Shown here in pieces: positions 7,581 to 10,797 of a stretch of DNA of 64,000 nucleotides (position 1 is the stretch's first letter; the number at the start of each line of letters is the position of its first letter). Source of the DNA: Gammaproteobacteria bacterium (GTDB taxonomy: Bacteria > Pseudomonadota > Gammaproteobacteria > Xanthomonadales > SZUA-36); contig JAJRRA010000037.1 in NCBI GenBank assembly GCA_024279945.1, forward strand, positions 1 to 64,000. Reading direction: 5' to 3'. The position numbers and the translations under genes were made by a program. The notes under the pieces were generated by a model that had not been told where the DNA came from, ran no database searches, and was given only the letters and a program-made list of their open reading frames with translations.

Positions 7581-8054
7581 CTAAATGCCGGCTATCTGAT
7601 GGCGGGCCTGCTCCGGCGTTTTACCCAGGGCATTGGCGAGTTCCTCAACCAGGAAATCCAGAGCCTGATTCAGGTGTGCCCGATCTGAAGCACGCAGTGT
7701 TCCTTCCGCCTCCAACCTGCTCAGTCCCTTGTAGACTTCGGCATAATCAAACGGGTCACCACGTTCCATGGCTATCTGATTGGCGTTGGCGCGAACCTTC
7801 CACTTGTTGCTCACGTTGCCATCCCATTTGTCGAGATGATCAAGCAATTTTTTTGCTTCACTGGCATTGATTGGATTACGAACGATATCCGCCAAATCCT
7901 GCTGACGAATCATCAATGTCAATCCGTCACGCTTGAAATATACTTGCGCAAACGTTGTTTTTTCTTCTCCTGAAAAACTTCTCTTGCGGATGGACTGAAC
8001 CTGACCAATGCCGTGGTGGGGATGGTGAACAGTAGCGCCTGGACTAATGGTAAT
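7581..8054 (-). CDS. CarD/CdnL-family RNA polymerase-binding protein, apparent AUU start
   Basis: The reading frame encodes a complete CarD_CdnL_TRCF protein of 157 residues. The N-terminal RNA polymerase-interacting domain contains GATVHHPHHGIGQVQSI and TTFAQVYFKRDGLTLMI. The C-terminal helical DNA-binding domain contains NKWKVRANANQIAMERGD and RAHLNQALDFLVEELA. CarD proteins stabilise the open promoter complex. No ATG, GTG or TTG precedes the N-terminal domain: an in-frame TAA lies at about 8081-8083 and the only candidate initiator is ATT at 8054-8052, 7 bases after a perfect AGGAG. A start at the internal TTG or ATG (7922 and inward) would delete the whole N-terminal domain. The gene is divergent from the LOG gene. 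Confidence 0.82.
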   Translation of the reverse strand: MTISPGATVHHPHHGIGQVQSIRKRSFSGEEKTTFAQVYFKRDGLTLMIRQQDLADIVRNPINASEAKKLLDHLDKWDGNVSNKWKVRANANQIAMERGDPFDYAEVYKGLSRLEAEGTLRASDRAHLNQALDFLVEELANALGKTPEQARHQIAGI

Positions 8055-8061
8055 AAGCTTT

Positions 8062-8066
8062 CTCCT
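8062..8066 (-). promoter_or_regulatory. Shine-Dalgarno AGGAG that fixes an AUU start
   Basis: On the minus strand TTTTAGGAGAAAGCTTATT runs into the CarD-like frame. AGGAG is followed by 7 bases and then ATT ACC ATT. The ideal spacing is the main evidence that translation begins at the ATT (8054-8052) rather than at a downstream codon. Confidence 0.7.
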
Positions 8067-8158
8067 AAAATTTCCTGCTGATAGATATTATTGCTAGTAA
8101 TCAATATGTTACACTATTTTCAAATACCCGTCAAACGAAAAGACTGGATGATAAGGCA

Positions 8159-8755
8159 TTGAGAAAAATTCAATTGAATCGAATCTGCGTCTACTGTGGT
8201 TCCAGCCCCGGTCGCCTGCCTGAATATCGGGCTGCAGCCCGGGCCCTGGGTCATGAACTGGCCGCACGCGGAATCGGCCTGGTCTACGGCGGCGCCGGTA
8301 TTGGCATAATGGGCGCGGTTGCTGACGCCGTACTGGAAAAAGGTGGTGAGGCTTTTGGCGTGATTCCATACGTGTTGGCCACCAGGGAAGTCGCACACCA
8401 GGGGCTGAACGAGTTGTTCGTGGTGAATTCAATGCACGAGCGCAAGGCCAAAATGGCGGAGTTATCCGATGGATTCATTGCACTACCGGGGGGATGGGGA
8501 ACTATTGAGGAAATCTTTGAGGTCTTGACCTGGGCACAACTGGGCTTGCATGAGAAGCCCTGTGGTCTATTGAATATTGCTTCTTATTACGACCCGCTCT
8601 TTGCTTTCATGGAACATGCATTTGATCAGCAATTCGTGCAGCAGGAATTTCGCCCAATGATCATGATGGATCAATCGGCCAGCGCCCTGCTGGACCGTTT
8701 TCGGGATTATCGCGCCCCGCATGTAAAGAAATGGATCGGCCCGGAAGAAACCTGA
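8159..8755 (+). CDS. LOG-family protein (nucleoside 5'-monophosphate phosphoribohydrolase)
   Basis: A 198-residue Rossmann-fold protein of the TIGR00730/LOG family. It carries the signature pieces NRICVYCGSSPG, LVYGGAGIGIMGAVADA, SMHERKAKMA (about residues 91-100) and PGGWGTIEEIFEVLTW (110-125). Family members cleave the N-glycosidic bond of nucleoside monophosphates and in some bacteria make cytokinin bases; the physiological substrate here is unknown. The start is TTG at 8159 or, five codons later, TTG 8174; no ATG is available before the conserved region. Transcribed away from the CarD-like gene. Confidence 0.88.
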   Translation: MRKIQLNRICVYCGSSPGRLPEYRAAARALGHELAARGIGLVYGGAGIGIMGAVADAVLEKGGEAFGVIPYVLATREVAHQGLNELFVVNSMHERKAKMAELSDGFIALPGGWGTIEEIFEVLTWAQLGLHEKPCGLLNIASYYDPLFAFMEHAFDQQFVQQEFRPMIMMDQSASALLDRFRDYRAPHVKKWIGPEET

Positions 8756-8761
8756 CCCGGA

Positions 8762-9625
8762 CTATTCAACCCCAAAGCCAGTCTCAAAACGCCAGGTCCG
8801 GGTGATGTGGAGAATATCCACCTGGTCGGAAATATTGTCGGGAAGAGGTGCATAGGGCGCGCACATTTGTACGATCCTTATAGCCGCCTGATCGACTTCC
8901 CGGATACCGGAACTGCGCATGATATCAATACTTTCGACCGTCCCGTTCCTGCGTATCCCCACGGTCAATACCAAGTCCCCGTGAAGTTTCTTCTGACGCA
9001 GTTCGCTGGGATAATTCATGTTGCCAACGCGCTCGACCTTTGACACCCAGGCACGCATATAGCTGGCAAACTCATATTCCTGCGTGTGGGCGGAGATGAA
9101 TTTACGTCGCGGCAGTTTTGATTTCCACTGTGCCTGCCGACTCAATTCGGGCTGCAGGCTGGCTATCTCCATGCTTTGCCGCATCAAGTGCGCAGCACTG
9201 GGCTGTTCGGTATCAGGCTGTTCACTACGGGTTTGCTCGAGCACCTCTGCAGTTTCAGCCTCCAGCGCCACAATCTCACGTGTTTCCTGTTCGGGGATTG
9301 GCAATTCCAGGCTGCTCTGCTGCTCATCCTGGCCTTGCTCCGGTATTGGCAGTTCACCGCTCACTTCTTGCGCAGGGCGTAAATTTTCGGCTACATCACC
9401 TCCACCCTGCTGTGATGCCTGGGCCAGGAATTCAGCCTCTTCCGGGGCATTTTCCGACCGCCACTTCACCAGCACGACATCCAGGGTGTCTGCCAGGCGG
9501 GACGATGATTTCAGGCCGACCTCAAAATTGACCCCGAGCAGAACCAGTGCGTGTAAAGCGGTGGCCAGTACAAGGAATAATTTGAAACGATCCTCCAGCC
9601 ATGAGTGGTTCTGGTGCCGGTCCAT
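8762..9625 (-). CDS. tonB: Energy transducer TonB-family protein
   Basis: A 287-residue protein with one N-terminal membrane anchor (about residues 14-34, FLVLATALHALVLLGVNF), a long Glu/Gln-rich periplasmic spacer, and a C-terminal TonB domain. The domain holds YPSELRQKKLHGDLVLTVGI and GTVESIDIMRSSGIREVD. It probably transmits proton-motive force to an outer-membrane partner. It sits beside gshB and pilG, as the type IV pilus-linked TonB3 does in P. aeruginosa, so a role in pilus function is plausible. The ATG at 9625 follows GGGGTGA and lies 2 bases past the gshB stop. Confidence 0.88.
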   Translation of the reverse strand: MDRHQNHSWLEDRFKLFLVLATALHALVLLGVNFEVGLKSSSRLADTLDVVLVKWRSENAPEEAEFLAQASQQGGGDVAENLRPAQEVSGELPIPEQGQDEQQSSLELPIPEQETREIVALEAETAEVLEQTRSEQPDTEQPSAAHLMRQSMEIASLQPELSRQAQWKSKLPRRKFISAHTQEYEFASYMRAWVSKVERVGNMNYPSELRQKKLHGDLVLTVGIRRNGTVESIDIMRSSGIREVDQAAIRIVQMCAPYAPLPDNISDQVDILHITRTWRFETGFGVE

Positions 9626-9627
9626 AC

Positions 9628-10605
9628 TCACCCCTGCCTTACCTGCTCCAGTGCATCGAACAGATCGGCAGCGATATTCAAGCCGAATTCGTGGTCGAGT
9701 TCACGAATACAAGTCGGGCTGGTGATATTGATTTCCGTCAACCAGTCGCCGATCACGTCCAGCCCGGCAAATACAATACCGCGATATTTCAGTTCCGGAG
9801 CAACCTGACTGACGATCCAGTAATCGCGATCGGTCAGCGCAATCCCTTTTCCCGTCCCGCCTTTTGCCAAATTACCCCTGAAGTCACCCTCCCCCGGTAT
9901 TCTGGCCAGTGCGTACGGAACCGGCTCACCATTAACTACCAGAATTCGTTTATCTCCCTGGGTGATCTCCGGTATGTATCGCTGCACCATGACCAGTTCA
10001 CGCTCCTTGTCCGTTATGGTCTCGAGTATCACATTGAGGTTAGGGTCTTGTGGACGGACCTGGAAAATGGACTCTCCACCCATTCCATCCAGCGGTTTGA
10101 CCACAGACAATCCGTGCTGGATGACAAAAGCCTTGATCTCAGCGCTGGATCGGCTGATCAGCGCCGGCACGCAACACTGAGGGAACTGCGTGATAAAACA
10201 CTTCTCATTGGCATCACGCAAAGCCTGGGGATGGTTGACCACCCGGACGCCGGCATTTGCGGCAAGATCCAGGATATAGGTCGTATAGACATAATCCATG
10301 TTGAAGGGCGGGTCCTTCCTCATCAAAAGGATGTCCAGTTCCGCAAGCTCCCCATGGGTGCGCTCCCCCAGGGTGAACCAGTCATCACTATTATCCCTGA
10401 TGCTGAGCTTCCGCATATGCCCCATGGCCGCCCCGTCTTTGATCGACAGGTCTGCAGTTTCCATATACAGCAGCTCATGCCCGCGCCTTTGCGCTTCCAG
10501 CAGCATGGCGAAAGTCGAGTCCTTGTAACTCTTGATGCTCGAGATTGGATCCATGATAACCCCGGTCCTGATGTTACCGCCGGTATTATGTTTGGAGTCG
10601 ACCAT
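9628..10605 (-). CDS. gshB: Glutathione synthetase
   Basis: A 325-residue ATP-grasp ligase that joins gamma-glutamylcysteine and glycine. Visible family pieces are GVIMDPISSIKSYKDSTFAM near the N terminus, LLMRKDPPFNMDYVYTTYIL, VVKPLDGMGGESIF in the ATP-grasp loop, and GLDVIGDWLTEINITSPT at the metal-binding end. The start at 10605 follows AAGGAAGGG closely and is preferred over a longer frame from 10689. The gene leads a minus-strand pair with tonB and is divergent from pilG, with 249 bases between the starts. Confidence 0.96.
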   Translation of the reverse strand: MVDSKHNTGGNIRTGVIMDPISSIKSYKDSTFAMLLEAQRRGHELLYMETADLSIKDGAAMGHMRKLSIRDNSDDWFTLGERTHGELAELDILLMRKDPPFNMDYVYTTYILDLAANAGVRVVNHPQALRDANEKCFITQFPQCCVPALISRSSAEIKAFVIQHGLSVVKPLDGMGGESIFQVRPQDPNLNVILETITDKERELVMVQRYIPEITQGDKRILVVNGEPVPYALARIPGEGDFRGNLAKGGTGKGIALTDRDYWIVSQVAPELKYRGIVFAGLDVIGDWLTEINITSPTCIRELDHEFGLNIAADLFDALEQVRQG

Positions 10606-10797
10606 TACCCTTCCTTGATGAAAAATCCCATTATCAACCCCCAGACTACATATTGCACCAGTCTCCTCTCCCGAAGAAGCCGAGCACAACGCAAATTGGA
10701 ATCTTAGCTTAATTTCATAAGCTATTGTAAGTTCTGGAATCTATGACTGAAAGTGGTAGACTAGATGATCCTGATTCTCATAATGGGGCTGGATTGT

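Follow-up and report, generated by a model that had tools for sequence, protein, structure and literature searches.

An AUU-started CarD-type gene in a gammaproteobacterium: a start codon that looks held by selection and a possible tie to IF3

Results

The carD locus in the window

The window, which is the whole stretch of 64,000 nucleotides analysed here, carries a carD-like gene on its minus strand. The features of the gene and its start region are as follows (AUH stands for AUU, AUC or AUA, and ATH for the same codons in DNA).

7581..8054, minus strand: carD-like gene, start ATT 8054-8052, stop TAG 7583-7581, 157 aa
7593..7847, minus strand: CarD_C domain, residues 70-154 (Pfam domain match)
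7908..8045, minus strand: RNA-polymerase-interacting domain (RID), CarD_TRCF_RID, residues 4-49 (Pfam domain match and predicted strands)
8052..8054, minus strand: AUU start codon, AUH in 32/34 distinct relatives
8062..8066, minus strand: Shine-Dalgarno AGGAG, 7 nt ahead of ATT 8054-8052
8088..8090, minus strand: in-frame TAA limiting the start search, upstream of ATT 8054-8052
8106..8134, minus strand: candidate sigma-70-like promoter TTGACG-17-TAACAT, 9/12 matches

The original prediction held that this frame encodes a full CarD-type protein, and both Pfam domains of the window protein were indeed above their cut-offs: the N-terminal, Tudor-like RID (PF02559) scored 26.1 bits against 23, and the C-terminal helical CarD_C domain (PF21095) scored 55.4 bits against 23.1. 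The AlphaFold model had a mean pLDDT of 91.8 and a CarD-like fold, with RID-region strands at E8-11, E15-25, E33-40 and E45-50. The Foldseek comparison of this model with solved CarD structures gave TM values of 0.85 for 4l5g and 0.90 for 6edt, and 0.83-0.90 for several full-length CarD structures; the nearest solved structures by sequence are actinobacterial and Thermus CarD. The fold and domains are the same as those of CarD/CdnL from Mycobacterium, Thermus, Caulobacter and Myxococcus, at approximately 26% identity. Trp85 (W85) is invariant across 15 aligned members, and W86 has been reported as needed for CarD function. Judged by its domains and predicted fold, the gene product is a CarD/CdnL-type protein and a predicted RNA polymerase-binding factor.

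No ATG, GTG or TTG was found in the carD frame from the TAA at 8090-8088 to TTG 7922, which agrees with the earlier claim that a standard start is missing before the N-terminal domain, although the TAA itself had been placed at about 8081. The AGGAG at 8066-8062 is perfect and ends 7 bases before ATT 8054-8052, as predicted. This ATT had been called the sole candidate; it is the one best spaced to the Shine-Dalgarno sequence, but a second in-frame ATT lies at 8048-8046, 13 nt from it. Codon 45, TTG 7922-7920, is the earliest standard start; it would yield 113 aa and drop most of the RID, in line with the warning that a gene caller would pick an internal start and lose a domain. Among 60 long frames scanned in the window, the carD frame alone pairs a very late first standard start (codon 55 of its stop-to-stop frame) with an upstream ATH that is preceded by a Shine-Dalgarno sequence and remote from every standard start.

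We considered an RNA structure that would mask or regulate the window carD start and rejected it, because the predicted folding of this gene's leader is weaker than that of every shuffled version (z +2.7). The promoter scan returned two sites in the region versus 0.9 expected by chance. A divergent LOG-family gene lies at 8069-8752 of the window, and its first standard start, TTG 8159, is near the candidate carD promoter at 8134-8106.

Start codons across relatives

Relatives were gathered within the same family (39 genomes) and in samples of the order, class and phylum; most of these genomes are draft assemblies, probably metagenome-derived. Start codons were read in 34 distinct genes of the subfamily, from two bacterial families, and were ATT in 25, ATC in 6, ATA in 1 and ATG in 2. 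In three genes (L014, L027 and L029), the start is one codon past the aligned first codon and was placed by hand. Leaving out the near-duplicate L031 gave a set of 31 AUH genes. The alignment of homologues, which had been proposed as a check on whether the AUU and the AGGAG are conserved, thus gave AUH in 32/34 genes and a Shine-Dalgarno match in all 31. The start is AUH in 31/31 of the set, with free variation on both sides of it (codons -3 to -1 and +1 to +4). The Shine-Dalgarno pairing of the 31 genes is between -5.4 and -9.2 kcal/mol, and 12.7% of internal background positions reach -5 kcal/mol or better. In 4/31 genes a stop lies two codons upstream of the AUH, with only one other codon between. 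In a few relatives a standard codon is present at a greater distance upstream, but its Shine-Dalgarno sequence is weak. Codons 2-44 have dN far below dS; once nearly identical pairs are set aside, dN/dS ranges from approximately 0.03 to 0.24.

Three other readings of the start can be weighed against these data. The start codon could have been misread or misassembled, or a frameshift could give access to a start further upstream; this would be conceivable in a draft assembly of 91 contigs in which the pcnB frame is broken. However, AUH is found in more than 30 distinct genes, although its third base and the sequence upstream of it differ among them. Because the codon and the Shine-Dalgarno sequence recur in relatives down to approximately 42% protein identity, such an error is excluded for practical purposes. 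Translation from TTG 7922 or later, with the upstream frame untranslated, would correspond to the first standard start and to the choice of a gene caller. It is extremely improbable in our judgement, as most of the RID would be gone and purifying selection acts on the codons upstream of it, with protein-level conservation in relatives. The use of another in-frame AUH such as ATT 8048-8046, or of both, is in keeping with isoleucine at residue 3 in 22/31 genes; yet this residue varies (V, F, L, S), its spacing from the Shine-Dalgarno sequence is long (13 nt in the window), and codon 1 is invariant as AUH, which leaves this reading highly improbable. The AUU proposed in the original prediction is conserved, the N-terminal codons are under purifying selection and no alternative start exists; it is therefore well backed, and translation of the window carD almost certainly begins there.

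Selection on the start codon class

On the tree, the third base of the start codon shows five or more changes between T, C and A and none to G, while G occupies 27% of the fourfold sites of the same subfamily genes. ATT is over-represented at the start, whereas ATC dominates the internal isoleucine codons (Fisher p = 3e-6, which is only nominal because the sequences are related). Close upstream stops and this codon bias disfavour the idea of a merely conserved isoleucine within a longer protein. Since nearly all relatives keep AUU, AUC or AUA, the weak start looks selected, and we believe that the codon is held in this class by selection.

We also considered operon coupling as the cause of the odd start. 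Gene order around carD is shared only with the closest relatives and there are no conserved neighbours beyond them; therefore, the AUH start is not preserved by a shared operon, and this explanation was rejected.

The two ATG genes, L008 and L009, belong to one genus and are nested inside the AUH tree. Because these genes start seven codons further upstream, at an ATG overlapping the slyD end, they look like a derived relocation into an operon behind slyD. Their use of ATG means that the AUH start is not indispensable. Genome G006 carries two carD copies, L009 at ATG behind slyD and L053 at ATT. Genome G020 also carries two copies, L010 and L065, both with AUH starts.

infC and pcnB in the same family

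The gene infC encodes IF3, starts at AUU, AUC or AUA, and is autoregulated. In the same family, the window genome included, infC starts at ATC in 30/30 genes read. Across the family, pcnB (L135-L164) is mostly without a fitting ATG, GTG or TTG and has AUH at the expected place, which seems to extend the AUU observation made in E. coli. The parallel that the original prediction drew with infC and pcnB was therefore apt. The pcnB of the window genome (L165) has a likely ATC start after AGGAG, and upstream GTG and TTG codons also exist. This pcnB is split over two frames (contig C28, 9300-11300; matches at 10043-10792 and 9561-10019), and the split is due either to misassembly or to a gene that is really broken.

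Discussion

To our knowledge, very few bacterial genes start at AUH. The gene infC has a conserved AUH start with a Shine-Dalgarno sequence in the IF3-rejected codon class, as carD does; it encodes IF3 itself, whereas carD would be a target and not autoregulated. E. coli pcnB likewise starts at a weak AUU without coding for IF3, but it encodes poly(A) polymerase and carD encodes an RNA polymerase factor. Binns and Masters reportedly found in 2002 that E. coli pcnB is translationally limited by its AUU. On the conserved AUH class, the Shine-Dalgarno sequence, and infC and pcnB in the same genomes, carD is, as judged from sequence, a new conserved member of the genes started by IF3-rejected codons.

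Studies have shown that other bacteria also use such starts. For example, cvfC1 (AUU), ccpN (AUA) and citZ (AUA) of Staphylococcus aureus have AUH starts with strong Shine-Dalgarno sequences, like carD, although they are genes of Firmicutes and of protein families unrelated to carD (PMC13009471). The starts of cvfC1 and ccpN, the latter a transcription regulator, were mapped by Ribo-Ret and are conserved (PMC13009471).

A codon that lacks G at its 3' position is rejected by IF3 (PMC4611024). We propose that the initiator tRNA would pair with the carD start with a third-base mismatch that IF3 rejects, which is established for AUH codons and which we infer for carD from its codon class. The AUU is accompanied by a Shine-Dalgarno sequence, and the leader of the window gene is predicted to be unstructured. 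Together with the conserved codon class, these features fit low CarD synthesis that would increase when there is little free IF3 for the 30S subunits present, like that of infC, and the data are consistent with a coupling of the CarD level to the IF3 level. In other bacteria, CarD stabilises open promoter complexes, above all those of rRNA genes; here it would in this way be coupled to the state of translation initiation. CarD also activates rRNA transcription in other bacteria (PMC8820732, PMC11034885), and we infer a similar effect on rRNA in this group. We consider it probable that this is an AUU-started CarD factor whose AUH class is under selection and whose synthesis is low and rises when IF3 is short. 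That infC, pcnB and carD form a small IF3-controlled AUH group, in which the IF3-to-ribosome balance would set a globally acting activator of transcription initiation, is a tentative and somewhat doubtful extension.

A real AUU start could also act as a fixed brake that keeps CarD scarce, without a meaningful response to IF3. The sequence evidence is the same for this reading, and E. coli pcnB has been described as AUU-limited in translation. In S. aureus, expression from AUU and AUA starts is approximately 10% of that from AUG, and the AUU start of cvfC1 showed no medium dependence (PMC13009471). However, a weak Shine-Dalgarno sequence, a weak promoter or a GUG or UUG start could also lower CarD, and none of these is used here; the strict absence of a third-base G fits IF3 discrimination better. 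We regard a fixed brake as rather unlikely and the IF3-responsive start as the preferred reading.

The level of CarD elsewhere is set by Clp proteolysis and antisense RNA (PMC8820732, PMC11034885); here the choice of start codon would serve instead. As the start of a gene for a general RNA polymerase factor, a conserved AUH would be a third control of the CarD level and, if IF3 control holds true, would let translation initiation regulate transcription initiation directly. Automatic annotation probably truncates or misses carD throughout the group.

In the literature searched, no report of an AUU start for CarD or CdnL was found. Alphaproteobacterial CdnL genes mostly start at ATG (one genus is without a clear start call), unlike the AUH of the window subfamily, and an ATG is available in each of four further CarD genes from Gammaproteobacteria whose starts were read (L030, L069-L071). 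Close relatives of the window CarD were absent from plasmid collections, phage collections and viral contigs. A published survey names Alphaproteobacteria, Deltaproteobacteria and a number of other phyla as having CarD, but does not list Gammaproteobacteria (PMC8407463). In our samples, CarD_C was present in 29/39 genomes of the family, 33/299 of the order sample and 5/369 of the class sample.
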